Assembly: GCF_014279795.1 (NCBI RefSeq)
Contig: NZ_CP047945.1
Location: 124,001-188,000, forward strand
Source: Synechococcus sp. PROS-7-1
GTDB lineage: Bacteria > Cyanobacteriota > Cyanobacteriia > PCC-6307 > Cyanobiaceae
Reading direction: 5' to 3'
Length of the DNA: 64,000 nt
The notes beneath the pieces are model-generated. The model saw only the letters and a list, made by a program, of their open reading frames with translations. It searched no databases and was not told the DNA's origin. A program made the translations under genes and the position numbers. This document shows, piece by piece, positions 2,619 through 63,764 of the stretch (its first letter is position 1; each line of letters begins with the position of its first letter).

Positions 2619-3358
2619 GGGGATGGATCGTAATGCAACTCCTCGGGCTGCTCACCCTCGAGAACGGCCTGGCAGCGCGCCTGCAGCCACTGATCCAGCT
2701 GCTCCTGCAGCAGGCGTTGGCGCATGCCCTCATCCAGGCGTGCCGGGGTGAGTTTCTCCAGGCGCAGCAGCAGCACCCAGGGGCCGAGGGCTTCAGGGGG
2801 CCTGAGGTCTCCGGGTTGCATGTGGCGCAGTCGCTCAGCCAGTTCCGGTTGCAGATCACCCAGTGCCATGGGCCCCAGCAGGCCACGGCTGCTGGCTTCA
2901 GGACCATCGCTGTGCTGGGCAGCGGCATCGGCAAAGCTGATCTCCCCTTCACTGATCTGAATCCAGAGCTCCCTGGCCAGCCCGGGATCGCGCACGCGCA
3001 GCAGGGAATAGAGCGCGGTGTCGAGGTTGCTTTTGCGGGTGAGGAAATGCTCTTCCAGGCCCGGCCCGAAGCGCTGCTCCGAGAAGCATTTCAACGCTTC
3101 TGGACGGGCGAGATGGAGGAGCAGATCCTCCTGGCTCCAGTGTTTGCGTTCCAGCCAGGCCTGGAGATCCTCGTCGCTCTGCAGCGACTGCTGCTCACGG
3201 AACCGCTGTTCCAGATCGTCGAGGCAAGCATCGCTGAGGTTCACAAGCGCCGTGATCTCTTCTTCGATGCAGCGTTTGAGCAGGGTGGGGGCCAGCTCCT
3301 GACGGCGGATCAGGCCCTGCAGGGCTTCGTCCTCGATGGTCCAGTGTTGCCACTGCAT
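2615..3358 (-). CDS. Parvulin-type peptidyl-prolyl isomerase (SurA/PpiC-like)
   Basis: Protein of 247 residues. An N-terminal helical region rich in Glu and Leu is followed by a parvulin-like domain (about residues 135-225) with FADAAAQHSDGPEASSRGLL, LGPMALGDLQPEL and a final LGPWVLLLRLEKL strand. No signal peptide or lipobox is visible, so it probably acts in the cytoplasm or is exported without a classical signal. I chose ATG 3358 because it overlaps the TGA of the upstream TPR-glycosyltransferase gene (TGATG); an upstream in-frame extension is Arg/Pro-rich and looks non-coding. Its stop overlaps the exporter start (ATGA). Such isomerases accompany type I exporters in some cyanobacteria, so a role in keeping the exported repeat protein in a secretable form is a reasonable inference. 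Confidence 0.8.
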   Translation of the reverse strand: MQWQHWTIEDEALQGLIRRQELAPTLLKRCIEEEITALVNLSDACLDDLEQRFREQQSLQSDEDLQAWLERKHWSQEDLLLHLARPEALKCFSEQRFGPGLEEHFLTRKSNLDTALYSLLRVRDPGLARELWIQISEGEISFADAAAQHSDGPEASSRGLLGPMALGDLQPELAERLRHMQPGDLRPPEALGPWVLLLRLEKLTPARLDEGMRQRLLQEQLDQWLQARCQAVLEGEQPEELHYDPSP

Positions 3359-5082
3359 CAGCGCACCTCCTGGGCCAGGGCGTTGAGATCGAGGCCGAGC
3401 ACCTCGCCTAGGGCGTCCACCACCCCATCGATGGCGCTGCTCCAGTCGTGGCGTTTGGGTTGGCGGAACAGGCGCATGCTGCTGTACCAAGGGGAATCCG
3501 AGCGATCCCGCAACCAGCGGAAGTCGGCATTGTTGGGGAGTAACACCCAGGTGGGCAGATCCAGGGCTGCAGCCAGGTGGGCCACGGCGGTATCCACGCT
3601 GATCACCAGATCCAGCTGGCTCACCACATGGGCGGTGTCGCCGAAGTGATCCAGGCGTCCGTTCCAGTCTACGAGCCCCTCCAGGTGCTGGTAAGGAGCC
3701 AGTTCATCCGCATCGCTGCCCACCTGCAGGCTGTGCAATTCGATCAGGTCGTTGCTCAGAGCTGGCAACAGTCTGGGCAGGAGCAGTTTGAGGGGCAGGC
3801 TCTTTTGGCGATACATCGCCTTGTTGCCGGGATTGCTGGCCCACACCAGGCCCACGGCGATCCCCCCTGGGGGAGCTGGCACCAGCAGCTGGGCTGGAGG
3901 TGGGCCTGGCGGCCTTAGGTAGGGGGTTGCTGAAGGGATGGTGCTGAGCGTGGTGCGCAGGAGCCGGGGCAGGCTGAGCAGGGCCAGGTGCGGGGCTGTT
4001 TTCAGGTCTTCATCGAGGGCTGTGTCATCGCACACTGTGAGGCCTGGAGGTCCCCATTCCTGCACAAGCGGGATCAGGGTGCGGCGAGTGGCAAACACAA
4101 ACGACACCCCCAGCGCCTGCAGGATCGGCAGGTAACGCAGGAACTGAATCACGTCCCCCAGTCCCTGTTCGGTCCACACCAGGCAACGGCGCTGCTCACG
4201 GGCCAGCGCCTGCAGCTGCTCCATGGTCAACACCCAGGGCCCGCTGCAGGGGGGTTGTTTGCCGCTGAATTGTTTGGTGGTGAAGCGCGTTTCGTACAGC
4301 CGCCAACCTTCGTCGTAGTCGCCCAGCAAGAGCAGGGTGAGGGCCATGTTGAACACCGCTTCCGGTGAGCTTGGATCGAGGGCGCTGCCGCGTTGCAGAG
4401 CTTCGAGCGCTTCCTCCGGCTTCAGTTCCTCCAGCAGGGCCATGCCCACATTCACCCAGCCTTCGGCGTGGTGCTGGTCCACCTGGATCGATTGCAAATA
4501 ACAGCGTTTGGCCAGGTCGAAGTGTTCGCGTGCATGGGCAATCAGCCCGAAATTGCACCACACATCGGCGTTGCAGGGATCCAACTGCAGGCTGTTCTGC
4601 AGGGCCATTTCGGCTTCATCCAGCCGGTCCCGTTCGCGCAGGGCGATGCCGTAGTTGTGCCAAACCTGTGCTCCATTGGCATCGAGCGCGAGGCTGCGTT
4701 CATAGGCGAGCACGGCCTTGTCGTACTGATCCAGGTCGCTGTAGTGATTGCCCAGGTTGTAGTGGGCGTCGCTGCGCTCGGGCAGCAGGCTGGTGGCGCG
4801 CAGCAGGGCCTGTTCCGCTTCTTGGTGGTGGTTGGCCAGCTTGCGGGCGCAGAGGCCGGCGATGAGCCAGGCATTGCCGTCGTTCTGGAGATGGCTGCTG
4901 AAGCTGCGGTGCAGTTCGTAGCCCTCCTGGAAACGCTTCAGCATCCAGAGAGCGGCGGAGGCCACCACGGCCCATTCGGCCGATGCATGCTCCTGATCAA
5001 GCTCTGCACGGGCTTGGTTGAGGGCCGTCTCGGCCTTCAGGGAGCCTTCAGAAAGAGCAAGCAGGCAGTCTCCAGGCCCCAC
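3358..5082 (-). CDS. TPR protein with C-terminal GT9-like glycosyltransferase domain
   Basis: Protein of 574 residues. The N-terminal half has about eight tetratricopeptide repeats (for example AHYNLGNHYSDLDQYDKAVL and VWHNYGIALRERDRLDEAEM). The C-terminal half resembles heptosyltransferase-like GT9 folds: LVWTEQGLGDVIQFLRYLP near residue 295 and VISVDTAVAHLAAALDLPTW near residue 490. It is the first gene of a coupled three-gene run with the isomerase and the type I exporter. The start faces a plus-strand GT41 gene across 54 bases, so both promoters must lie in or beside that gap. The context suggests glycosylation of an exported protein; the TPR part would bind the acceptor. Sugar donor and acceptor are unknown. 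Confidence 0.85.
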   Translation of the reverse strand: MGPGDCLLALSEGSLKAETALNQARAELDQEHASAEWAVVASAALWMLKRFQEGYELHRSFSSHLQNDGNAWLIAGLCARKLANHHQEAEQALLRATSLLPERSDAHYNLGNHYSDLDQYDKAVLAYERSLALDANGAQVWHNYGIALRERDRLDEAEMALQNSLQLDPCNADVWCNFGLIAHAREHFDLAKRCYLQSIQVDQHHAEGWVNVGMALLEELKPEEALEALQRGSALDPSSPEAVFNMALTLLLLGDYDEGWRLYETRFTTKQFSGKQPPCSGPWVLTMEQLQALAREQRRCLVWTEQGLGDVIQFLRYLPILQALGVSFVFATRRTLIPLVQEWGPPGLTVCDDTALDEDLKTAPHLALLSLPRLLRTTLSTIPSATPYLRPPGPPPAQLLVPAPPGGIAVGLVWASNPGNKAMYRQKSLPLKLLLPRLLPALSNDLIELHSLQVGSDADELAPYQHLEGLVDWNGRLDHFGDTAHVVSQLDLVISVDTAVAHLAAALDLPTWVLLPNNADFRWLRDRSDSPWYSSMRLFRQPKRHDWSSAIDGVVDALGEVLGLDLNALAQEVR

Positions 5083-5136
5083 ATCCGTCGGTTCGATCGA
5101 ACGTAGACCTTAAGTTGAGCTGATCCGCTGAGTTGT

Positions 5137-7308
5137 ATGAACGCGGCCCAGCTGCGTCAGCAGGCTGTGGAAGCCCATCGGGCGGGCCACTGGCACGAGG
5201 CTGAGCAGGCTTATCTCCAGTTGATGGCCGAGGCGCCCGCCGCTGATCTCGCTGCCAATTACGGCAGCCTGCTGCGCTCCCAGGGCCGGCTGGATGCCGC
5301 GGAGGCTCATTACGGCAGGGCCTTGGCGGCCTTCCCCGATGATGTGCATCTGCTCTGTAATGCCTGCAATCTGCTGCGCGATCAGGGCAAGGCCGCCATC
5401 ACCGTTGATCTTTTGCAGCAGGCACTGCAACGCAGCAGCGGCAACCACGATCTGACCAAGGCACTGGCGCTGTCGTTGCATCACTGCGATCGCGTGGATG
5501 AGGCGTTGCAACTGCTGCCACGCTTGGTCTCCGCGCAGCCGGGCTGCTCGGAACTTCGCCTGGAATATGGCGCCTGCCTGGCCAAACGCGACGCACCCCG
5601 GGAGGCCATCGCCCAGTTCCGTGAAGCCTTGGCCATCGCTCCCAACGATCCCCGGGCGCTGGCGAATCTGATCATTCTGCTTGCGGAGCAGGGCGGCCTT
5701 CAGGAGGCCCGCACCGCGCTCGAACGCGGTGATGTGGATCAAGAGTCTCCGCGCATGCTCGGGGCCCGGGCTCAATTGTTGATGAGCGAAGGCGATGCGG
5801 AGGGTGCCCTGGCACTTCACCAACGCCTCACCGGCCTGGAGCCGGCGGTGGCGGACCACTGGCTGAATGTGGCGGCCTGCCACAAGGAGCTGCGGCGCAT
5901 GGTGGCGCCAACCCAGGCGCTGCGCCAGGCCGTGCGCCTGGCCCCGGAACGGCCGGACCTCCAGCTGGCGCTTGGCAGTTTGCTGGTGGAGCAGGGCCAC
6001 AGCGCCGAAGGCTTGCGCCTGTTGCAGGGCACCCTGGATCAGCCCGGGCTCAAGGATGAGCCGTTCACGGTGCATCAGTTCATCACGGCTGGCCATCGCC
6101 TGCTTCCCGCCGAGCAGTTGCGCCAGGAGGTGGAGCGCTGGGAACAGCGCAGGGCGCTGCCCTTGCAAGAGATCTGGCAAGACCGCATCCGCGATCCTGA
6201 TCCCCAGCGCCGCTTGCGAGTGGGATTTCTTTCGGCTGATTTCTCCAAGCATCCGGTGGGGCGCTTCATGGCGCCCCTGCTGGAGGCCCACGATCCTGAA
6301 CAGTTGGAGCTGGTGGGCCTCTCCTGCGGGCGCCTGCAGGATCACTTCACCGAGCGCATCCGGGCTGCCTGCTCCAGTTGGCATGAGCTGCGCTTCGGCA
6401 GGGATGAGGAAGTGGCGCGCTTGCTGGCCGATCTTCAGCTGGATGTGATCGTGGAGCTGGGGGGCTACACCGCCCAGCAGCGCCTGCGGCCGCTCACGGC
6501 CCGTCCGGCTCCGATTCAGCTCAGTTATCTGGGCTATCCCGCCAGCACCTACCTGCGCTGTATCGATGGTTGGATTGGTGACGCCGCCTGTTTTGGCCCT
6601 GCTCAGTTGCACGAGCGTGGTGTGAACGAGCAGTTGCTGGTTCTGCCCCGGGCCTACCTGGCCTATCCGCAGCCGGAGGAGGCTCCCCTGCCGGAGCGCA
6701 CCGCTGCCGATCAGCGCTTTCGCTTCGGCAGTTTCAACCACAGCCGCAAGCTCGGGGATGGCTGCCTCGATCGTTTCGTGGCTGTGTTGCAGGCTGTGCC
6801 TGACAGCGTGCTGGTGCTCAAGAGCACCACCTTTGAAGAACAGGCTGAACGGGACCGGATCCAGGGGCGGTTGATGCAGCGGGGTCTTGCTCCGGAACGC
6901 CTGGAGCTGCTGCCCCGCAGCGTTGATCAGTCCGCCCACCTGGCCAGCTACGGCCAGGTGGATGTGGCCCTCGACACCTGGCCCTACAGCGGCACCACCA
7001 CCAGCTGTGAGGCTCTGTGGATGGGGGTGCCGGTGTTGACTGTGATGGGTCAGGTGATGGTGGAACGGCAGACCGCCTCCGTGCTCGCTGCCGCTGGCCT
7101 GGGTTCGGCGATCAGCCGCAGCCTCGAGGAGATGGTGCAGAAAGCCCGTTTGGCGGCAGCCCAGGGTCCGCGCGATCAGCCGCAACGACTGGCTTTACGC
7201 GCACACGTGGCCGCGTCCGATCTGGCAGACAGTGCCTCCCTGGCCCGGGCCATGGAGGCGCTTTATCGCCAGCTCTGGCAGCGGCGGTCTTACGCCGCCA
7301 GGCTCTGA
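5137..7308 (+). CDS. TPR-containing GT41 glycosyltransferase (O-GlcNAc-transferase-like)
   Basis: Protein of 723 residues. TPR-type helical repeats fill residues 1 to about 340. The C-terminal GT41 catalytic region starts at RLRVGFLSADFSKHPVGRFM (about 356). It keeps the HPVG motif, the PIQLSYLGYPAS segment, GSFNHSRKLGDG with the Lys that contacts donor phosphate in characterised enzymes, and DTWPYSGTTTSCEALWMGVP. GT41 enzymes are soluble and modify Ser/Thr or Asn of proteins in the cytoplasm. No signal peptide is seen. The 3' end overlaps the end of a second, convergent GT41 gene by 19 bases. Its position between the exporter genes and the RTX gene makes the RTX protein a plausible acceptor (inference). 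Confidence 0.9.
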   Translation: MNAAQLRQQAVEAHRAGHWHEAEQAYLQLMAEAPAADLAANYGSLLRSQGRLDAAEAHYGRALAAFPDDVHLLCNACNLLRDQGKAAITVDLLQQALQRSSGNHDLTKALALSLHHCDRVDEALQLLPRLVSAQPGCSELRLEYGACLAKRDAPREAIAQFREALAIAPNDPRALANLIILLAEQGGLQEARTALERGDVDQESPRMLGARAQLLMSEGDAEGALALHQRLTGLEPAVADHWLNVAACHKELRRMVAPTQALRQAVRLAPERPDLQLALGSLLVEQGHSAEGLRLLQGTLDQPGLKDEPFTVHQFITAGHRLLPAEQLRQEVERWEQRRALPLQEIWQDRIRDPDPQRRLRVGFLSADFSKHPVGRFMAPLLEAHDPEQLELVGLSCGRLQDHFTERIRAACSSWHELRFGRDEEVARLLADLQLDVIVELGGYTAQQRLRPLTARPAPIQLSYLGYPASTYLRCIDGWIGDAACFGPAQLHERGVNEQLLVLPRAYLAYPQPEEAPLPERTAADQRFRFGSFNHSRKLGDGCLDRFVAVLQAVPDSVLVLKSTTFEEQAERDRIQGRLMQRGLAPERLELLPRSVDQSAHLASYGQVDVALDTWPYSGTTTSCEALWMGVPVLTVMGQVMVERQTASVLAAAGLGSAISRSLEEMVQKARLAAAQGPRDQPQRLALRAHVAASDLADSASLARAMEALYRQLWQRRSYAARL

Positions 7309-53529: not shown

Positions 53530-55242
53530 TTATCGCCTATAAACAATAATTGTTTTCCAGGCACCTGAATCACCTTGAGGGAAATTAAATTTGCTGTAAT
53601 TTAAAGCCACGATGTTCCTGGGAGCTGAAAATACAATTTCTTTTTCTGTGGATTCTGGGAGACTCTCTCGGTAGCGTTCAGATGTAATAACAAAGTCAAA
53701 CTCTTGGACAAGCTCTTCTATTGTTTTGTGAGATTTTGAGCTGTAAACAGGCTGCGGAAAGCATTCACAATGAATAAGATGTTTCGAGGGATTGTCATTG
53801 ATCCAGTCATAAGGTGAATTTGAGCAGATTCTTCGGATGATTCCATTCTCTGCAGCAATAAAAGCTTGATAGCGCTGGCGGTTGAATCTTGGAAACGCAC
53901 CTGCTGCATCTTGAGAATCCTTAGGATGTAAAAAAAGAATCGTTTGAACGGTAGATGTTTCTTGAGATTTTAGCCATGCTTCTGCATTGCGAGTGGAGCC
54001 ATTTTGTACTCTCAGTTGATGAATGGCCCAGGTTTTTTTGGCCTGGGAGGTGGCGATAGCCGCAATTGTGATCAAGGAAACTATTCTTAAAGCCCGCTTG
54101 GATTTGGTTGCTGTTGAGTCAACCCCGATTTTCAGAATGCCTGTGATGCAAGCTGATACGAAGGGGAGTGCAGGTGTCAGCCATGTTGAGTTGTAAGTAC
54201 TCGCCGCAAAGCCGATGCCTATGAAGGGCGCATAAATGATTGCAATCCCTATGAAGCGATGTGGATTCAGTGATCTGCGTACAGCTTGTTGGAAGTTGCT
54301 GCGCTGCAGAGCGAGCAACATGAGGGCGAGTCCAAGGAGAAGAAGAATCCCGGTCACGGAGTAGCCATAAGCATTAATAAGTAGAAATTTTTTCAATGCG
54401 GCAAGTGGGGCCCAGTTTGATTTTTTGTTGACCTCTCCAGAGAAATGAAGGTAGGCAGTCTGCCAGCGCAGATATAAGTAGGGTGATGTGAGAAGAATTG
54501 TGCTAGCGAATATTGATACGCTTTTGAGACTATTGACTAGCTTTTGCTTTCGAGTCAGTGATGAGCTTAGGCCAATGAGAAGCTGGGTGGAGGCAAAAAC
54601 TGAAGCGGCTAGGTATTTAAATGTCAGCCCGAGGCCAGAGAGGATGGAGAGTGGGATTAGCTTTTGTTTGATCGATGCTTTTGAGGCTGTGATCAGCCCT
54701 GAGCTGAGAAGGATGAGAGTGAGCAGGTGGTCAGATCTGGCGCGATGAGAATGCGTGATAAAAAGGGGATTAAAAATGGTCATGGCTGTTGCCAGAAGCG
54801 CCCAGCGAATTGGAAAAATTGTTCGGCTCATCAGATAAATCATTGGGGCGCATAATGCTGCAATGATTCGAGAGATTAAGCGGCCAAGCGTCACGAGCTG
54901 CTCGTGATCCTTGATGTATGTTTCTCGTGTAAAAGCTTGCCCGTCTAATGCGTAGCTAGCTTTGTAGATCAGTGCGAGTAAATAATTAATCAGTGTTGCT
55001 GGATGGCCATACCAGTAAGGATCTAGATTTCCTGTTGAAGCGATTTGAGCGGCGATGGATACGCGGGTGCTTTCCTCTCCGATTAACCCAGCTGCCTGGT
55101 TAAGTCCTGGCCAAGTGAGTGCCAGGGTGATGAAGAAAAGAACAACACAGAGGATAATCTCAATCGTCTGTTGAGGAATGTGCCGGATTGATTTTGGATT
55201 GTGTTCTTCCATGGCTCTTGGGATCGGTCCTTGCGTCAACAA
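53530..55242 (-). CDS. GT-C-type membrane glycosyltransferase, AT-rich
   Basis: Protein of 570 residues with about ten hydrophobic segments in the first 400 (TIEIILCVVLFFITLALTW, LLTLILLSSGLITA, GILLLLGLALMLLAL). EESTRVSIAAQIASTGNLDP with GHPATLINYLLALIYK fits the first periplasmic loop of PMT/ArnT-like GT-C enzymes, where an acidic residue is catalytic. Such enzymes use lipid-linked sugars. The soluble C-terminal 170 residues are unassigned. Base composition is far lower in GC than all neighbours, and codon use is different, which suggests recent transfer. Start at 55242; MEEHNPKS (55212) is an alternative. Confidence 0.72.
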   Translation of the reverse strand: MLTQGPIPRAMEEHNPKSIRHIPQQTIEIILCVVLFFITLALTWPGLNQAAGLIGEESTRVSIAAQIASTGNLDPYWYGHPATLINYLLALIYKASYALDGQAFTRETYIKDHEQLVTLGRLISRIIAALCAPMIYLMSRTIFPIRWALLATAMTIFNPLFITHSHRARSDHLLTLILLSSGLITASKASIKQKLIPLSILSGLGLTFKYLAASVFASTQLLIGLSSSLTRKQKLVNSLKSVSIFASTILLTSPYLYLRWQTAYLHFSGEVNKKSNWAPLAALKKFLLINAYGYSVTGILLLLGLALMLLALQRSNFQQAVRRSLNPHRFIGIAIIYAPFIGIGFAASTYNSTWLTPALPFVSACITGILKIGVDSTATKSKRALRIVSLITIAAIATSQAKKTWAIHQLRVQNGSTRNAEAWLKSQETSTVQTILFLHPKDSQDAAGAFPRFNRQRYQAFIAAENGIIRRICSNSPYDWINDNPSKHLIHCECFPQPVYSSKSHKTIEELVQEFDFVITSERYRESLPESTEKEIVFSAPRNIVALNYSKFNFPQGDSGAWKTIIVYRR

Positions 55243-55260: not shown

Positions 55261-56244
55261 TCACCTGAGATAGGAGATGGCCTGCGGGTTGTCGATGTCG
55301 TAATCGATGATTGGTGCAGGCAATCCAACGAGAGTCTTGCTGTCGTAGGCGGTGAAGTCCTCCACCCGTTTGAACAGGGGGAGCAGCACTCGCGCCAGGG
55401 CATTGGGTGCGCCATAGAAGAACGAGTGGTGACCCAATAGAAACTCGGTGGTGCCTGATCCTTCCTTTTGCTGTTGCTTTCGCAGGAAGTGCTGCAGAGC
55501 CAGCCGTTCCTCTTGGCTGAGACCCGGATGGGCGGTCACGGGAAAGTCTTTTTGGGCGGCCAGCAAGCCGCAATCGTTCCAGTTGAGCTGGGCCAGGGCG
55601 GTGATCAGACGCTCCCGTTCTCCGGAGAAATCGATGCAGGCCAGCTCTTGCTCTTCGATTGCCATCACATCGCGGAAGCAGCGATGTTGCAGCAATGTCC
55701 ATTTCTGCCGGGCATCATCGTGTACCACGATTGCCCCCAACCGCACCTTGGCGTAGCGCTTCAGCAGGTTGAGATGGGCCGGTTGCCGGGCCAGGAAATG
55801 AAACAGAAACTGCGATCCGGTGCCGATGTAGTCATCCAGCACCACCAGGGCTCGACGGTCCTGGTCGGCCGGCGGATCGGCCAGCAGTGCGTCCATGCTG
55901 CGAAAACAGGTCACCGGCAAGCGGTTGGCCTTGCGGTAGGCGTAGGCAATCAGATCACCGCTTTTGCACACGAAGGCGCGGGTGATGTCGATGTCTCGGA
56001 AGCTGGCCACATCAAAGCCATCGCCGGCCAGGTCTCGGCAGAGCCGTTGGTGCAGCAGCCGGCATTCACGCAGCAGCCTGGCCCAGCTGTGCATCTCGAT
56101 GCACTCCAGCAGCCGCAGGGCGATGCTGTGGTCGTCGGCTTCAAACTGGGCGAGCCAACGGTCGAGAGAGGGCCGGGGGATCTCCGCTTCGTTCCAGTGG
56201 ACGGCCAGTTGATCCAGGCGGGCCTGCGTGCTGGTGTCGCTCAT
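55261..56244 (-). CDS. Phosphoribosyltransferase-like protein (PRTase-CE type)
   Basis: Protein of 327 residues. CKSGDLIAYAYRKANRLP near residue 91 and ALVVLDDYIGTGSQFLFHFL near residue 131 are a PRPP-loop-type motif (hydrophobics, DD, then GTGS) as in phosphoribosyltransferases. TTEFLLGHHSFFYGAPNALA near residue 265 recalls the conserved C-terminal element of the PRTase-CE group, which has been proposed to act in RNA processing or defence. No hypoxanthine/uracil-type base-binding motif is evident. Its ATG overlaps the hydrolase stop by 4 bases; the AT-rich GT-C gene follows after 18 bases. Biological role unknown. Confidence 0.65.
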   Translation of the reverse strand: MSDTSTQARLDQLAVHWNEAEIPRPSLDRWLAQFEADDHSIALRLLECIEMHSWARLLRECRLLHQRLCRDLAGDGFDVASFRDIDITRAFVCKSGDLIAYAYRKANRLPVTCFRSMDALLADPPADQDRRALVVLDDYIGTGSQFLFHFLARQPAHLNLLKRYAKVRLGAIVVHDDARQKWTLLQHRCFRDVMAIEEQELACIDFSGERERLITALAQLNWNDCGLLAAQKDFPVTAHPGLSQEERLALQHFLRKQQQKEGSGTTEFLLGHHSFFYGAPNALARVLLPLFKRVEDFTAYDSKTLVGLPAPIIDYDIDNPQAISYLR

Positions 56245-57206
56245 GCTCCCTGCGCCGTGAGAATCTCCAGCAACCGGGCGTTCACCGCCTCCGGTGCTTC
56301 GTCGTGGGGACAGTGTCCCACCAAGGGCAGCACTGTGAGCGATTGAATGCAGGCAAAGCGCTCAGCCCAATCCTGGGCTTCCGCCACCGGCTCCCAGGGA
56401 TCCTGTTCGCCCCAGATCAGGTGCACCGGCTGCTCCAGGTTGGCCAGCAGCTCCGGAGCCAGGTGGTCATCAAAGAGGTTGATGAAGCCCCGGAAGGCTT
56501 CGGCGGCTCCGGATCGCTGCGTCGGTCGGTACAGCAGGTCAACCAAGTCGTCGTCCACATTGGCTCCGCTGGGGTAGGCCTGGCCGAGCACGCTGCGGAT
56601 CACCCTGGGCCTGGCGGCGTTGCGGAACAGGGCCGTGCTCAGCCAGCGCTGGCTCACCAGGGTTTTCAGAAACGGCCGGATCCAGGCCATCCAGGCCGGT
56701 TGGCTGGCCAGCTGCTTGTCATCCATCAGGCGCTGGGCGCAGTCGATCAGCACCACGCCCTTGCAGTGCGCCCCCAGCCGTTGGGCGGCGCGAAGTACCA
56801 CCACACCGCCAATGGAATTGCCCACCAGCAGCACAGGGCGTTGCACGATCTGCCTGCAAAAGGCCTCAACCTGCTGAGCCCAGAGATCAAACCCATACAC
56901 AAGCGCTTCATCACTTGGCGCCTGGCGCTGGGCATCGGGATCGCTGGGAAGCACGGCCCTTGGCTGGCTGCTGCCGCCGAAGCCGATCAGATCAAGGGCG
57001 AAGGTGGGGGTTCGTTCGGCCAGCGACGGCATGGTGTGACGCCAGTGGCCGCTGCTGGCACCGAAGCCATGCACCAGCACCACAGCCGGCGATGCACTGG
57101 TGTCTTGGCCTTGGCCCTGCCGGCGCCAGGCCACATCAAGGCCGCATCCATCGGGCTGCTCCCAGGTCCAGTGCGCCGCGTCAGCTGGCACTGGCGAGGG
57201 ATCCAT
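56241..57206 (-). CDS. Alpha/beta hydrolase
   Basis: Protein of 321 residues. VVLVHGFGASSGHWRHT (oxyanion-hole HGFG), LLVGNSIGGVVVLRAAQ (nucleophile Ser in G-N-S-I-G-G), LIWGEQDPWEP (acid) and LPLVGHCPHDEAPEAVN (catalytic His). Cytoplasmic, substrate unknown; close relatives in cyanobacteria are annotated only as hydrolases. MDPSPVPADAAHW (57206) was taken as start; MVMMMDPS at 57218 is possible. Either overlaps the 3' end of the RND pump gene, so expression is likely from the pump transcript. Confidence 0.88.
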   Translation of the reverse strand: MDPSPVPADAAHWTWEQPDGCGLDVAWRRQGQGQDTSASPAVVLVHGFGASSGHWRHTMPSLAERTPTFALDLIGFGGSSQPRAVLPSDPDAQRQAPSDEALVYGFDLWAQQVEAFCRQIVQRPVLLVGNSIGGVVVLRAAQRLGAHCKGVVLIDCAQRLMDDKQLASQPAWMAWIRPFLKTLVSQRWLSTALFRNAARPRVIRSVLGQAYPSGANVDDDLVDLLYRPTQRSGAAEAFRGFINLFDDHLAPELLANLEQPVHLIWGEQDPWEPVAEAQDWAERFACIQSLTVLPLVGHCPHDEAPEAVNARLLEILTAQGA

Positions 57207-60200
57207 CATCATCACCATCCGTTGGCTTGCTGCCGAAGAGGCGTTCTTCTAGTCCCTTAATCACCACGTAGAAAGGCGGCACCACGCCGAGGGAGAGCAC
57301 GGTGGCGACCACCAGTCCGCCGAAGATCACCGTGCCCAGGGATTGCTGACTTTGGGCACCGGCGCCGTTGGCGACCACCAGCGGCAGAAAGCCAGCAAGG
57401 GCCGCGATCGCCGTCATCAGAATCGGCCGCAGTCTCGATTCAGCTGAGGCGATCACCGCATCGGTGGCACTCATGCCCTCTTCGAGGTGTTGTTCCGCCA
57501 CTTCAACAATCAAGATGCCGTTTTTGGCCGCCAGACCGATCAGGGTCACCAGACCCACCTGGGCGTAAATGTTGAGGTCGATGGAGCGGATCGCCAGAAA
57601 CGCTAGGGCCCCAAGCATCGCTAGGGGCACGGTCATCAGAATGATCACCGGAGTGACATAGCTCTCGTACTGGGCCGACAGCACCAGATACACGATCAGA
57701 ATGCCGAAGCCGAACACGAGCACACTGGCGCTGCCGGCGGAGAGTTGCAGGGCGGCAAGGCCGGTGAAGGCATAGCCGATGTTGTTGAAGTTCTCCTTCT
57801 TGAACAGCGCCTGAATCGAACTCAGGGCCTGCCCGGAGCTCTTGCCCACCGCTTGGGCTCCCTGGATCAGCACTGTGCGATAGAGGTTGTAGTGGCTGAT
57901 GATCGGAGGAGCGCTCGACAGTTCCGATGACGCGAACTGCGACACCTGGATCATGTCGCCATCGCGATTTTTCACGTAGTAGCTGAGGATGTTTTCAATG
58001 TCGTCGCGTTGTTCGGCTTCGGCCTGCACGTACACATTGCGCACCTGGCCGTCCTCATAGGTGAGGCCTGTGTAGGAGCCACCGGCCAGCACGGCGATGG
58101 TGTTCATCGCCTCCTCGTAATCCACATTCAGGGCTCCCATCACGGCGCGATCCACCGTCAGGCCGAAGGCTGGAGCACTGGGAATGAACTGGGTGTAAAG
58201 GTTGGAGAAGTTGCCACTGGCTTTTCCGGCCTTGATCAGCGTCTGCGCCTGATCATCGAGCTGATTGAAGCTGTAATTACCGCTGAGATCGTTGAACTGG
58301 AAGTAGAAGCCACCCTGGGCTGAGAACCCTGGAACCGCTGGCGGTTGTCCCACCACCGCCAAGCCGCTGTTCAGGGCCGAGAGCTTGGCATTAAGTCGAT
58401 CAGCGATGGCGAAGGAACTGTTCACCGCGCCCGGCCGTTCACTCAGCGGTTTCAGACCAATCAGGATCGTGCCCTGGTCGGGACTGGAGCCGTTGAAGCC
58501 GTAACCACTGATCACGCTGGTGTTCAGAACATCGCCCTCCTCGTTCACGACCGCTGCAATCTCCTTGGCCAAGCTTTGGGTCTCGCTGAGCGATGCGCCG
58601 TTCTGCAATTGGAAAAAGCCCGCCAGGTAACCCTGGTCTTCATCGGGGATGAACGCCGAGGGCAGGGCTGTGAAGGCCAAAAGCGTGAGCACAATGCCGC
58701 CAGCCAGAGTCACCATCACCCAGCGTCTGGCCTTGATCAGCGTGCGAATCAGTCGGGAGTAGCCGTTCTGCAGCCGGGAGAAGTTGGTGTTGAACACCCT
58801 GAAAATCAAGGAGAGATTCGCCCCTGCCAATCCGCCCACCACCACGCCGAGCACGTAGGTCCAGTTGCCGAAGGCTGCTGAGCTGAAACGCCCGAAGGCC
58901 AGACCCACAATCACGCCGGCCACTGGCCAGATCCAGCCTTTCGGTGGTGCGGTCTGTCCCGGTTTGAGAATCAGGCCCGACAACATGGGCGAGAACGTGA
59001 GCGCGTTAAACGCGGAGATGGCGATTGAGAAAGCGATCGTCAGTGCGAACTGCTGATAGATGATGCCGATGCTTCCTGGGTAGAACGCCACAGGAACAAA
59101 CACCGCCATCAGCACCAGCGCTGTGGCCACAAGGGCACCGAACAGCTCTCCCATACAGGCCAGGGCGGCCTGCCTTGGCTTCATGCCGGATTCGATGTTC
59201 TTCGACACCGCTTCAATCACCACGATGGCGTCATCCACCACCAGACCGGTGGCCAGCACGAGGCCAAGCAGGGTGAGTTGGTTGATGGAGAATCCGAACA
59301 CCTTGATGAAGGCGAAGGTGCCCACCAGGGAAATAGGGATCGCCAGGCTGGGCACCACCGTGGCGCGCCAGTTCTGCAGAAAGAGGAAAAGGATCAGCAG
59401 CACCAGCACGATCGCCAGGCCGAGGGCATCGACGACGCCCTCCACGGACGATTCGATGAATTGACCAATGTTGTACACCTGCGACACGGTCACACCAGGT
59501 GGAGCCGTCGCTGCAAAGGCGTCAATTTGTTTCACCACGGCATCCGCCACATCCAGGGCGTTGCTTTCCGGGGTCTGAAACACCGCCACAGAGACTGCAT
59601 CGTGGCTCGAGCGATCCACGGCCGCTGATGTGTAGTTGTTGAAGCCGTATTGCACCTCACCCACGTCTTTGAGCAGAAGAAGATTCCCCGTTTCCGTGCG
59701 GCTGATGATCAGATTCTCGAAGTCTTCCAGGCTGAGCAGATTGCCGTTGTTCTGCACCAACAACGGGTAGGTGTAGGCCTGATCGCCGGCTGCGGGTGGC
59801 CCACCCACAAGACCACCGATCGCCGTTGTGTTCTGAGCCTTGACTGCATCCACCACCTGGTTGGCGGTGAGATTGTTCGCTGCCAATTTGTCGGGGTCGA
59901 TGAACAGCCAGTAGGCGGGATTGGTTCCCCCCAGGATGTTCACGTTGGCGACGCCCGGAACCCGTTCCAGGGGGTAATAGAGCTGTTGGTACACCAGGCC
60001 GTTGAGATAGGCCGAGTCGAATTGTCCTTCGGTTGAGGACACCTCATAGGCCAGCAGGATGGAGGGGGTCGACTGCTGCACGGAGACACCCGTGGCTGAT
60101 ACCTGGCTGGGCAGTTGGGGCATCGCCAGGGACACGCGGTTCTGCACGTTCACCTGGTCGATGTCGATGTCAGTGGTCTCGTCGAAGTAGACCTGGATGA

Positions 60201-60471
60201 TGCTCTGCCCCTCCATGTTGCTGGTGGAGTAGATGTAAGAGGCTCCGGGTGCACCGTTGATCTGCTGCTCGAGCGGATTGGTGACTGCCTGTTCCGTGAC
60301 CAGGGAATTGGCGCCGCTGTAGTTGGCGGTGACCTGGATCAGGGGCGGGGCGATGTTGGGGAGATTGGCGATCGGCAGAGTCGGGATCGCGATCACGCCC
60401 ATCAGCACAATCAGGATGCTGCAGACCGTGGTGAGTACCGGCCGCTTAATGAAGTTGTCGGAGAAGGCCAT
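57181..60471 (-). CDS. RND efflux pump, inner-membrane subunit (HAE1/AcrB family)
   Basis: Protein of 1096 residues. Typical N-terminus FSDNFIKRPVLTTVCSILIV, periplasmic porter domains, LGLVLATGLVVDDAIVVIEA (two Asp of the proton relay, near 407) and the second-half repeat YLVLSAQYESYVTPVIILMT. About 50 extra hydrophobic residues (WIWPVAGVIVGLAFGRFSSA and WTYVLGVVVGGLAGANLSLI, near 513-560) lie between TM6 and TM7. Exports hydrophobic compounds with the membrane-fusion lipoprotein encoded 7 bases upstream; no TolC-type gene is in the window. Confidence 0.95.
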   Translation of the reverse strand: MAFSDNFIKRPVLTTVCSILIVLMGVIAIPTLPIANLPNIAPPLIQVTANYSGANSLVTEQAVTNPLEQQINGAPGASYIYSTSNMEGQSIIQVYFDETTDIDIDQVNVQNRVSLAMPQLPSQVSATGVSVQQSTPSILLAYEVSSTEGQFDSAYLNGLVYQQLYYPLERVPGVANVNILGGTNPAYWLFIDPDKLAANNLTANQVVDAVKAQNTTAIGGLVGGPPAAGDQAYTYPLLVQNNGNLLSLEDFENLIISRTETGNLLLLKDVGEVQYGFNNYTSAAVDRSSHDAVSVAVFQTPESNALDVADAVVKQIDAFAATAPPGVTVSQVYNIGQFIESSVEGVVDALGLAIVLVLLILFLFLQNWRATVVPSLAIPISLVGTFAFIKVFGFSINQLTLLGLVLATGLVVDDAIVVIEAVSKNIESGMKPRQAALACMGELFGALVATALVLMAVFVPVAFYPGSIGIIYQQFALTIAFSIAISAFNALTFSPMLSGLILKPGQTAPPKGWIWPVAGVIVGLAFGRFSSAAFGNWTYVLGVVVGGLAGANLSLIFRVFNTNFSRLQNGYSRLIRTLIKARRWVMVTLAGGIVLTLLAFTALPSAFIPDEDQGYLAGFFQLQNGASLSETQSLAKEIAAVVNEEGDVLNTSVISGYGFNGSSPDQGTILIGLKPLSERPGAVNSSFAIADRLNAKLSALNSGLAVVGQPPAVPGFSAQGGFYFQFNDLSGNYSFNQLDDQAQTLIKAGKASGNFSNLYTQFIPSAPAFGLTVDRAVMGALNVDYEEAMNTIAVLAGGSYTGLTYEDGQVRNVYVQAEAEQRDDIENILSYYVKNRDGDMIQVSQFASSELSSAPPIISHYNLYRTVLIQGAQAVGKSSGQALSSIQALFKKENFNNIGYAFTGLAALQLSAGSASVLVFGFGILIVYLVLSAQYESYVTPVIILMTVPLAMLGALAFLAIRSIDLNIYAQVGLVTLIGLAAKNGILIVEVAEQHLEEGMSATDAVIASAESRLRPILMTAIAALAGFLPLVVANGAGAQSQQSLGTVIFGGLVVATVLSLGVVPPFYVVIKGLEERLFGSKPTDGDDDGSLASAS

Positions 60472-60478
60472 GGGACGG

Positions 60479-61597
60479 TCAGTTCGTGGTCTTCACAGGA
60501 ATGCCGTTGCTGAGCAGGGCTGTTTTGCTCACAACGACGGTGTCACCCTTGTTCAGGCCTGACTTCAGTGGATAGAAATTGTTCTGCAATTCACCAAGTT
60601 CCACTGCTTTTTGCACCACGATTTGAGTGCTGGGGGGAAGGCTCTCGAGCTTTTTCTTCTGCTTCTCTGGCACGGAGGCGGAGGCCTTGATCTTCGGCAG
60701 GGCCTTGCTCACCGGAACCGTGACGTAAACGAAGGGTTGCTGCGCCTGCATGAACACGGCCTGCACCGGCACGGCCAGGGCTTGTTTGTTCCCCACGATG
60801 ATTTGGCTCTTCACAAACTGGCCGGTCTTGAGTTGGTTGGTGAGATTGGGGAAGGTGGCCTTCACCATCAAAGCGTTGGGAGAGCTGGTGCTGCCGCTGA
60901 TGCCGAAGTAGGGGGAGATGAAGCTCACCGTTCCTTCGCCTGTGACCGGCGGATTGGTCTGCGACGCCACCTTCACCTTTTGACCGATTTTCACGGCACC
61001 TGATTGCGTGGCGGGGATCTGCATCAGGGTCCAGAGGGTGGAGTTGTTCACGATGCCGGTGATCGCCTGGCCGGTCTGCACGTAATCCCCCAGCTTCACG
61101 CTGTCCAGGTCGCCCACCACCCCGTCGATCGGCGAACGCACGAACTTGTAGCCGAGGGTGGCGGCGTCGGAGAGGGCCTGGTCGCGTGATGCGATCGCCT
61201 GGGTGACGTATTGGTCGCGCTGTTTCGCTGAGGCGGCACCGTTTTGGTAGAGGAATTCGTAGCGCTCAGCGTTGAGCTTGTCGGTGCGTGCTTGGGCTTT
61301 TGCTGAGTCGAGCGCAGCACTCTGCTGCACGTTGTCGAGCTCGAGGATTGGCTGCCCTGCCTTCACGCGCTCACCGTCGCTGGCCAGCACTTTCACCACA
61401 CGCCCATCGGTTTCAGGCCTCAGCGACACCGTGGTCGTGGACTCCAGCACACTGATCGCTTCAATGCTCGGCTGGAACGTGGCCTCAGCGATGCGGGCCG
61501 TCTTCACGGTGAGCAGCTTCTTCGCCTGGGTTTTCGGCTTGCCACAACCAGCGAGCAACGTCGCAGCCGTGAGGGTCAGCGCCAGGGTTCGCCGCAC
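60479..61597 (-). CDS. RND efflux membrane-fusion lipoprotein (AcrA/MexA family)
   Basis: Protein of 372 residues from GTG 61597. Lipoprotein signal RRTLALTLTAATLLAGCGKP with lipobox LAGC. Barrel-sandwich hybrid TVSLRPETDGRVVKVLASDG and VRSPIDGVVGDLDSVKLGDY, flanking a helical hairpin, then a beta-barrel (VKIGQKVKVAS). A longer open frame upstream reads as non-coding. No clear Shine-Dalgarno sequence. First gene of a five-gene minus run to 53530. Confidence 0.9.
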   Translation of the reverse strand: MRRTLALTLTAATLLAGCGKPKTQAKKLLTVKTARIAEATFQPSIEAISVLESTTTVSLRPETDGRVVKVLASDGERVKAGQPILELDNVQQSAALDSAKAQARTDKLNAERYEFLYQNGAASAKQRDQYVTQAIASRDQALSDAATLGYKFVRSPIDGVVGDLDSVKLGDYVQTGQAITGIVNNSTLWTLMQIPATQSGAVKIGQKVKVASQTNPPVTGEGTVSFISPYFGISGSTSSPNALMVKATFPNLTNQLKTGQFVKSQIIVGNKQALAVPVQAVFMQAQQPFVYVTVPVSKALPKIKASASVPEKQKKKLESLPPSTQIVVQKAVELGELQNNFYPLKSGLNKGDTVVVSKTALLSNGIPVKTTN

Positions 61598-61768
61598 AGT
61601 GAATTGGTTTTGCTTCGCGGAACCTACTTGTTTTTTTGGGGGACGTCGGTGGTTGTGTGTGAGCGTTGGCAGGCGGTGGGTGAGTGGTGGGTGATGGGAC
61701 TTGCTCGTGGGTTGTGCTGCATTGATCAGGAGCGGTGAACAGACGGCAACTCCACGCCAACCCGAACG

Positions 61769-61788
61769 TTTTTCACAGCTTTTCCACA
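61769..61788 (+). promoter_or_regulatory. Pair of DnaA-box-like sequences
   Basis: TTTTTCACA (61769-61777) and TTTTCCACA (61780-61788) both match the consensus TTWTNCACA and start 11 bases apart, one helix turn. They lie about 170 bases upstream of the efflux lipoprotein gene. Confidence 0.45.
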
Positions 61789-61837
61789 GGCCTGTTCGCG
61801 CGGATCGTGGACCAGGGGAGGCCTTGGTCTGGCGGCA

Positions 61838-61857
61838 GGGGAAAAGCAGCTTTCCCC
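61838..61857. repeat. Inverted repeat upstream of the efflux operon
   Basis: GGGGAAA-AGCAGC-TTTCCCC, a perfect 7-bp inverted repeat with a 6-base spacer, 241 bases upstream of the lipoprotein start. No T-run follows on either strand. Possible operator. Confidence 0.4.
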
Positions 61858-62068
61858 TTGACGGGAAGAGCAAAAACGATTGTGTGCTGTGTTCGTTGAC
61901 ACTGATGCTGCGGCTGAAGCCAGTGCTGGACAGCCTTTGTCTGGTTTCAGAGCGAGCAAGTCGAAGTGAGTCCGGTTTTTTGACATCACTGCAGGTTCCG
62001 TGTCGTGATGGTGTCGTTGACAACGAAGGTCTGAGTTGCACGAGACGCCTGATGCGATACCGGCCCAT

Positions 62069-62284
62069 GTGAGTGTGGAAAACCAGATGCCCGAGGATTT
62101 GCATCGCGCCATGGGGGTGTTCATCGAGGAGCACCCCCAATGGGATCAGTACCGGCTGGTGCAGTCCGCCATCGCCGGCTTCCTGTTTCAGCAGGGTTGC
62201 AAGGATCGTGCCGTGGTTCAGCACTATCTGAGCGGCCTGTTCCACCGCGACGCCGGTTCCCATCGGGTTGAGCCCTCCTGCTGA
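62069..62284 (+). CDS. Small conserved protein (DUF2811 type)
   Basis: Protein of 71 residues. QMPEDLHRAMGVFIEEHPQW followed by DQYRLVQSAIAGFLFQQGCK and HYLSGLF is the pattern I associate with the cyanobacterial DUF2811 family. No membrane segment or signal; probably a helical cytoplasmic protein. The start is taken as GTG 62069; TTG 62036 would add 11 unlike residues. Function unknown. Confidence 0.78.
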   Translation: MSVENQMPEDLHRAMGVFIEEHPQWDQYRLVQSAIAGFLFQQGCKDRAVVQHYLSGLFHRDAGSHRVEPSC

Positions 62285-62342
62285 ATGAGAGCAAGCGCGG
62301 GGGAGGGAATGGGGGCAAAATGCTGCTGTTTTGGGGCATCCC

Positions 62343-63056
62343 ATGGGTCGTCGTCTGGTTCTGCTGCTGGTCGTCCTCTGGATCACGTTCGTGCCAAGCC
62401 TGCCGGCATTAGCCATGGGGTCCAGTGATCTGGAGCGCCAGCTTGCGAGCAAGCAGGGCATCGCTGACCTGATGCCTGCTTTTCGCGATGGGCAGGGTCA
62501 GTTCCGAGTGCCGGATCCCACCAAAGATCCCCAGGCTTTTCTGAAAGCCCAACAGACGCTCACGATCCTGATTGATCAGGCAGAAAGCCAGGCACTCAAT
62601 CGCCTCAGCCCCAAGGAGCTGCAGCGCCGAATGAGCGGGTCGCCTACCCGCTTGCCCCCTGTGTGGAGGCGCTCGGAAATCGCTGTGCGCACGGATGGCC
62701 AAGCGGCGGATTGCGCCGATTCGGGCCCCAAGTGCTCCGCCTACGGCTCGGCGTCTTTTCTCAACACGCTGGAGCCAGTCAAAGGGTTGGAGCGAAGTTT
62801 TTATCGCAGCGTTTCCAGTGATGGCTCCGTTCCAGCGCTTGTTTACTTGCAGCCCACGGCCGTGCCCAGCGTGAGCAGGATTCTTTTGGCAGCGGCCAAT
62901 TCAGCTGGTGTTTGGATTCCTGCGGCCTATGCCCTCGGGCCACCAGGAGGCGATGCCTTCCTGATCGTGAACAACTGCCTCGACCTCGCCCAGGAAGAGA
63001 ACGGAGCTCTTAAGCCGGCAGCGATGCTGGTGGCTGCTCTGCAGTGGGTGGACTGA
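62343..63056 (+). CDS. Secreted protein of unknown function
   Basis: Protein of 237 residues from ATG 62343. Signal peptide MGRRLVLLLVVLWITFVPSL with a likely cut after ALA. The mature part has KAQQTLTILIDQAESQALNR and a pair of Cys in ADCADSGPKCSAYGSASFLN that could form a disulfide; AYALGPPGGDAFLIVNNCLD follows. I do not recognise the family. It probably acts in the periplasm or thylakoid lumen. 58 bases after the DUF2811-type gene, same strand. Confidence 0.75.
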   Translation: MGRRLVLLLVVLWITFVPSLPALAMGSSDLERQLASKQGIADLMPAFRDGQGQFRVPDPTKDPQAFLKAQQTLTILIDQAESQALNRLSPKELQRRMSGSPTRLPPVWRRSEIAVRTDGQAADCADSGPKCSAYGSASFLNTLEPVKGLERSFYRSVSSDGSVPALVYLQPTAVPSVSRILLAAANSAGVWIPAAYALGPPGGDAFLIVNNCLDLAQEENGALKPAAMLVAALQWVD

Positions 63057-63119
63057 CAACGGTCAGTTTCACTGGCACGCTTGAGTTCGATCGCGCTGGG
63101 ATTGCCCCGGTCCATCGTC

Positions 63120-63764
63120 ATGGCATCAGATCAACGCCCAGGGCAGAAAGCCACGCCCAACCCGCAGCTCATTCATCGTCTTCTCGAGGTGATGGAGCAT
63201 GAAATTGTTCCCCTCACAGCACGGGAGGTCGTCAAAGGCAACAAGCTCTTTGGCGCAGCGATGCTGAATAAGCATGATTTATCCACGATCATCGCTGACA
63301 CCAATCAGGAAACATTGAATCCTTTGTTTCATGCTGAAGTGCAGACGATTAACCACTATTACGCCTCTCCAAGGGAACAGCACGTCGCGCCCAGTGATGT
63401 GTTGTTCCTTGCCACTCACGAGCCGTGCCCGCTCTGCTCGTCGGCGATCACCTGGGCTGGCTTCGACAACTTCTATTACTTTTTCAGCCACGAAGACTCG
63501 CGAGACTCCTTCAAAATCGGGCACGATCTCAACATTTTAAAGGAAGTGTTCAAACATGAGCCTGGTGGTTATGCCCGCGAGAACAGTTACTGGACGGGCT
63601 ATGGCATCTGCGATCTGATTGAGAATTGCGCTCCAAGTGATCGCACCGCGTTCGAACAGCGCGCCTCGGCTTTAAGGGATACCTACCAACAATTGTCTGA
63701 CCTCTACCAGCAAGGCAAGGGCAAGGGCCAATCCGACGATCCAGCTTTCATCCCTCTTGGATGA
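63120..63764 (+). CDS. CDA-fold nucleoside/tRNA deaminase-like protein
   Basis: Protein of 214 residues. FHAEVQTINHYYAS (HAE zinc and proton-shuttle motif) and THEPCPLCSSAITWAGFDNF (PCxxC zinc ligands) define the cytidine-deaminase fold; Pro-Cys-Pro-Leu-Cys is intact, so activity is likely. The long C-terminus (HDLNILKEVFKHEPGGYARE onward) is unlike TadA or Cdd. Start ATG 63120; TTG 63081 is unlikely. GC content appears somewhat lower than in the neighbours. Substrate unknown. Confidence 0.8.
   Translation: MASDQRPGQKATPNPQLIHRLLEVMEHEIVPLTAREVVKGNKLFGAAMLNKHDLSTIIADTNQETLNPLFHAEVQTINHYYASPREQHVAPSDVLFLATHEPCPLCSSAITWAGFDNFYYFFSHEDSRDSFKIGHDLNILKEVFKHEPGGYARENSYWTGYGICDLIENCAPSDRTAFEQRASALRDTYQQLSDLYQQGKGKGQSDDPAFIPLG

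Follow-up and report, generated by a model that had tools for sequence, protein, structure and literature searches.

The window, that is, the whole 64,000-nucleotide stretch of Synechococcus sp. PROS-7-1 DNA analysed here, encodes a 327-aa protein, residues 27–181 of which belong, by sequence, to the PRTase-CE family (PF24390). We regard this protein, with a probability of about 40%, as a stand-alone, probably PRPP-using, divergent PRTase-CE with an accessory metabolic or stress role. This reading is based on the PF24390 score, the invariant loop, the low dN/dS, the host-like GC content and the lack of any phage, plasmid or IMG/VR match. It is also based on the counts among the 31 genomes of the genus, in which reverse transcriptase is absent, NADAR occurs in a single, PRTase-negative genome and the PRTase itself in eight, and on the co-occurrence with a glutamine-synthetase-like gene.

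Family assignment and conserved blocks

An ORF check confirmed the reading frame as real, and the gene is present as a single copy in the 2.57 Mb genome. PF24390 was matched in Pfam at 42.3 bits against a gathering cut-off of 27 (E 1.1e-10), over profile positions 1–154 of 253, and was the sole match at E ≤ 1. This result agrees with the family call of an earlier note, which had been made from the letters of this DNA. Four PRTase_III-A models of PADLOC also matched the protein, with a best E of 9e-11. No match was found in NCBIfam at E ≤ 1, in PHROGs, or in the PDB by sequence, either by phmmer with the protein or with a profile from its alignment, and the literature search found no paper under the family names PRTase-CE or PF24390. 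The nearest named relative was the copy of Synechococcus WH7803, with 94% identity.

Conservation was read from an alignment of 13 sequences, consisting of the window protein and 12 relatives (60–94% identity). Three motif blocks, namely SGDLIAYAYRKAN at residues 95–107, LVVLDDYIGTGSQ, and GHHSFFYGAPN at residues 271–281, were mostly invariant, and the variable positions were 98–100, 102, 133, 135, 136 and 274. All of the blocks quoted in the earlier note, including its PRPP-loop pattern, were found in the ORF. W30, Q33 and F34 were invariant in the 13 sequences, and the W-x-x-Q-F start was also seen in distant PRTase-CE proteins. K94-S95-G96-D97, likewise invariant in 13 of 13, aligned near KSG/KGSS of the distant members; we propose it as the pyrophosphate-side loop. 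LVVLDDYIGTGSQ is presumably the PRPP loop. Within it, D137-D138 and I140-G141-T142-G143-S144 were invariant, and this acidic D-D...G-x-G loop aligned with the loop of distant PRTase-CE members. When the clade profile was compared with nine distant members, 150 columns were aligned over residues 21–180, with a probability of 89.7 and an E of 1.9e-6.

The C-terminal half was matched by none of the profiles tried. A profile made from 21 further PRTase-CE proteins gave 28.8 bits with the window protein over residues 27–147, and the same profile against residues 182–327 alone gave an E of 370, a weaker score than the best one among 2000 shuffles. The HMM search thus gave a negative result for C-terminal homology to the rest of the family, and the C-terminal half is therefore clade-specific at the sequence level. 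Its block GTTEFLLGHHSFFYGAPNALARVLLPLFKR was invariant at 28 of 30 positions in the 13 sequences (position 274 varies and 289 is near-invariant). The P-N and LF-K-R in this block resemble, by eye only, the PNN...LF-R ending of the PRTase-CE family. The AlphaFold2 model of the protein, made from 7 sequences, had a mean pLDDT of 39.2 and was unusable.

Table 1. Coordinates of the PRTase-CE gene, its conserved segments and the neighbouring genes in the window, and of the remnant in another genome
Feature	Position	Strand	Remark
PRTase-CE family gene	55261..56244	(-)	327 aa, ATG start, single copy in genome
WLAQF, residues 30-34	56143..56157	(-)	N-terminal W-x-x-Q-F signature, common to other PRTase-CE proteins
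KSGD, residues 94-97	55954..55965	(-)	proposed pyrophosphate-side loop
LVVLDDYIGTGSQ, residues 133-145	55810..55848	(-)	PRPP-loop pattern with acidic pair D137-D138
C-terminal half, residues 182-327	55264..55701	(-)	outside the PF24390 match
GTTEFLLGHHSFFYGAPNALARVLLPLFKR, residues 264-293	55366..55455	(-)	longest conserved block of the clade
PMT_2-like glycosyltransferase	53530..55242	(-)	nearest profile PMT_2, 26.0 bits (cut-off 26.1); GC 45.5%
Alpha/beta hydrolase	56241..57218	(-)	genus-conserved; ATGA overlap with PRTase; clade-specific neighbour
RND pump	57181-60471		identity by eye; upstream of hydrolase
HlyD-type partner	60479-62461		identity by eye; upstream, beside RND pump gene
Truncated PRTase remnant	L125 (G091), about 1500-1600		about the first 30 residues kept

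Genomic setting, distribution and selection

The neighbouring genes described here were named by eye, except the hydrolase, the PRTase and the PMT_2-like gene. The recurrent order in the genus loci read was HlyD-type gene, RND pump and hydrolase, which ends this efflux cassette, and then a convergent sigma factor and an MgtE-type gene (the hydrolase of locus L111 was located by tblastn). Five genomes, G000, G002, G004, G011 and G021, have the PRTase gene between the hydrolase and the sigma factor (the G021 locus is split over two contigs). The five form one clade with an SH-aLRT of 100, or 92 with fewer genes, and in each of them the stop codon of the hydrolase gene and the start codon of the PRTase gene overlap in an ATGA. 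The weight that the earlier note implies for this efflux home is not supported, as the cassette lacked the PRTase at its site in all 15 of the other loci examined (the G028 locus ends at a contig edge). The coupling to a hydrolase, proposed in the same note, is real as an overlap but limited to this clade. Hydrolase matches were obtained in all 31 genus genomes at E ≤ 0.001 and were close (E ≤ 1e-128) in 28; G015, G026 and G030, which are 58–80% complete, gave weaker matches only, probably to paralogues. Because the hydrolase is genus-wide and the pairing, when sought elsewhere, was confined to five of the 31 genomes, a fixed hydrolase-PRTase module was rejected. The hydrolase is a clade-specific neighbour of the PRTase, not a fixed partner.

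On the other side lies the gene that had been described as transferred-looking, and its GC content is indeed 45.5%, against 62.8% for the window. However, among the loci compared, this PMT_2-like gene was seen at the PRTase site in the window genome only, and at the same site G008 and G022 have low-GC genes for a methyltransferase or a glycosyltransferase instead. The efflux-cassette site thus takes up sugar-related genes, and the PMT_2-like neighbour says nothing about the PRTase and is not part of its system. A recent joint transfer of the two genes was rejected by GC and synteny; the GC content of the PRTase gene is 60.9%, which is host-like. About 7 kb from the PRTase gene, at 63081–63764 of the window, a cytidine/dCMP-deaminase-family protein (PF00383) is encoded.

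Outside this clade the surroundings of the gene differ. In G006, G007 and G022, the PRTase gene lies about 50 bp downstream of the glutamine-synthetase-like gene. In G039, an inward-rectifier-type K+ channel gene, itself behind a katG-like gene, precedes the PRTase, and at the MAG loci L012 and L097 an apparent ATP-dependent DNA ligase gene is close by. The neighbours on other MAG contigs differ again, and no neighbour was common to all of the PRTase loci read.

The PRTase was present in 8 of the 31 genus genomes; of the 24 with a completeness of 90% or more, 7 have it. In the family sample, 10 of 201 genomes were matched, and 8 copies were intact after setting aside G207, with a weak match (33% identity over 67 residues), and G091, with a partial one (26 residues). 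The G091 remnant points to gene loss. The clade profile matched 7 of 388 class genomes, the remnant included, and relatives of the window protein were met only in picocyanobacteria in the searches run. The PF24390 family is broader, with matches over the cut-off in 50 of 291 phylum genomes.

No relative of the window protein was found in phage records, in plasmid records, or in IMG/VR (scanned with two short motifs only), and phage or plasmid carriage of the gene was rejected on this basis. With other PRTase-CE proteins or a mixed alignment as the query, again no match was obtained in IMG/VR or in phage records, and the plasmid search with other PRTase-CE queries found seven rhizobial plasmids, of which the contexts of two were read. 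On one of these, the Sinorhizobium meliloti plasmid pCpl (L132), positions 2113–5378 hold thyX and a DNA methyltransferase gene and, after them, a hypothetical gene that the PRTase-CE query matched; this stretch is possibly a base-modification cassette.

The dN/dS values of the PRTase were 0.117–0.152 (six pairs, four genomes), and those of the RND pump were 0.060–0.089 (three pairs). The PRTase is under purifying selection, although in these terms it evolves about twice as fast as the pump, and its presence in its clade predates the split of the compared genomes.

Possible roles of the protein

The contexts of related proteins were read at the seven highest-scoring class loci, out of the 50 phylum genomes over the PF24390 cut-off. 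A NADAR gene (PF08719) lay directly downstream of the PRTase-CE gene at five of the seven; of the other two PRTase-CE proteins, one is part of a fusion with an AAA-type ATPase and the other is encoded among ATPase genes. The order of PRTase-CE gene and then NADAR gene was seen in other cyanobacteria at L099, L100, L101, L102 and L103 (about 8–12 kb each). NADAR is presumably an ADP-ribose-type enzyme, and the pairing could be a clue to the family's chemistry. At L032, from another lineage of the phylum, a reverse transcriptase gene (PF00078) comes next after the PRTase-CE gene. Within the genus, PF00078 was found in 0 of 31 genomes, the window genome included. NADAR was found in one, the PRTase-negative G016, where it has four in-frame stops, and it was absent from the window genome.

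The main rival of the metabolic or stress reading, which we consider rather unlikely, is a solo anti-phage gene, in which the PRTase would be the effector and the conserved C-terminal half a built-in sensor, so that no reverse transcriptase, NADAR or ATPase partner would be needed. The relatives beside a reverse transcriptase, in an ATPase fusion and in NADAR pairs are consistent with such a gene, as are the PADLOC retron III-A matches, the patchy presence and the different sites in different clades. In the literature, PRTase and winged-helix genes are given as typical of type III-A1 retrons (PMC12548924), a 2022 paper reports a DprA-PRTase defence pair and states that it is unknown how retron PRTases act (PMC9122126), a legend of validated defence systems names PRTase (PMC13092281), and PRTases of selfish elements are discussed (PMC5512222). 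On the other hand, no defence gene was recognised by eye beside the PRTase (PADLOC covered the window's three genes only), its GC content is host-like, it keeps to a single, stable site within the WH7803 clade, and phage and plasmid records hold no relative. The conflict role suggested in the earlier note gained no direct support here: the genome has neither reverse transcriptase nor NADAR, and phage records, plasmid records and IMG/VR yielded no relative.

Another possibility, which we hold to be improbable, is that the PRTase and the glutamine-synthetase-like enzyme share one nitrogen or polyamine route. The gene of this enzyme was found in 10 of the 31 genus genomes (E ≤ 1e-60), namely in 8 of 8 PRTase-positive and 2 of 23 PRTase-negative ones (G001 and G016; Fisher 5.7e-6). 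In the family sample, it was present in 5 of 8 genomes with the PRTase against 33 of 193 without (Fisher 0.007). Its product is gamma-glutamyl-amine ligase-like, the best NCBIfam match being gamma-glutamylputrescine synthetase, with a score of 217 bits (cut-off 650). An arginine decarboxylase-like gene, recognised by eye, lies near it in the window genome's clade. The short spacing in G006, G007 and G022 fits such a route; in the window genome, 2.2 Mb of sequence lies between the two genes by coordinates (or, should the contig be circular, about 0.4 Mb in the opposite direction), and therefore adjacency alone is no explanation of the co-occurrence. The ligase-like gene was, however, absent at E ≤ 1e-40 from G039 (one contig), G076 and G183 (80% complete), which argues against a shared route, as does its presence in G001 and G016 without the PRTase. 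Beside the ligase-like gene of G001 lies an ORF that looks by eye like a PfkB-type kinase gene, and neither this place nor the gap in G016 yielded a PRTase remnant (best E 0.049). An adjacent symporter gene, used as the control, was present in 5 of 8 PRTase-positive and 5 of 23 PRTase-negative genus genomes (Fisher 0.048). In a tree of 20 of the 31 genomes, from which G028 was then dropped and in which G016 was not included, there were three independent contrasts, of which the ligase-like gene follows 2.5 and the control gene 2.0 on average. Phylogeny cannot separate the co-occurrence from chance, and this lead is not established.

A drifted ordinary purine or pyrimidine salvage PRTase, the kind of best match that the earlier note had set against its own call, is very improbable, as the PRPP-loop pattern is kept but neither PF00156 nor NCBIfam was matched at E ≤ 1, and PF00156 has four matches over its cut-off elsewhere in the genome.

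In the favoured metabolic or stress reading, DDYIGTGS would be the binding site for PRPP or a similar ribosyl donor, and the protein would move the phosphoribosyl group onto a small acceptor, which the clade-specific C-terminal half may choose. It would work as an accessory metabolic or stress enzyme, not as a partner-controlled toxin, and in several genomes its gene is probably read through from a metabolic gene ahead. We count in its favour that the neighbouring genes, most of them identified by eye, look metabolic and vary from clade to clade. Counted against it are the patchy presence, which also fits defence genes, the PADLOC matches, which are retron effectors, the fold, an unconfirmed model with a pLDDT of 39.2, the dN/dS of about twice that of the RND pump, and the glutamine-synthetase link, with its three contrasts and its gene missing from G039, G076 and G183. 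A further version, speculative and with a small chance of being right, is that a defence-type PRTase was tamed in picocyanobacteria to a free-standing enzyme, with a new acceptor domain, a tie to the gamma-glutamyl-amine ligase and an undescribed PRPP-dependent reaction.

Comparison with known PRTase systems

Among the known systems, the type III-A retron effector (PADLOC PRTase_III-A) resembles the window protein in its PRTase domain, but it has a reverse transcriptase alongside, which the genus lacks, and no winged-helix gene was recognised beside the window gene. The cyanobacterial PRTase-CE and NADAR pairs share the same Pfam domain and the same class with the window gene, but differ by the NADAR itself. 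With PF24390 PRTase-CE, the protein shares the W-x-x-Q-F start, the D-D...G-x-G loop and a score above the curated cut-off; the C-terminal half is unrecognised there, and the identity to distant members is about 20% in the alignment. As a solo, chromosomal and conserved member, with a copy in WH7803, the gene offers a simple place to ask what a PRTase does without a reverse transcriptase or ATPase partner. If its role is metabolic, it would suggest the chemistry performed by the defence versions.
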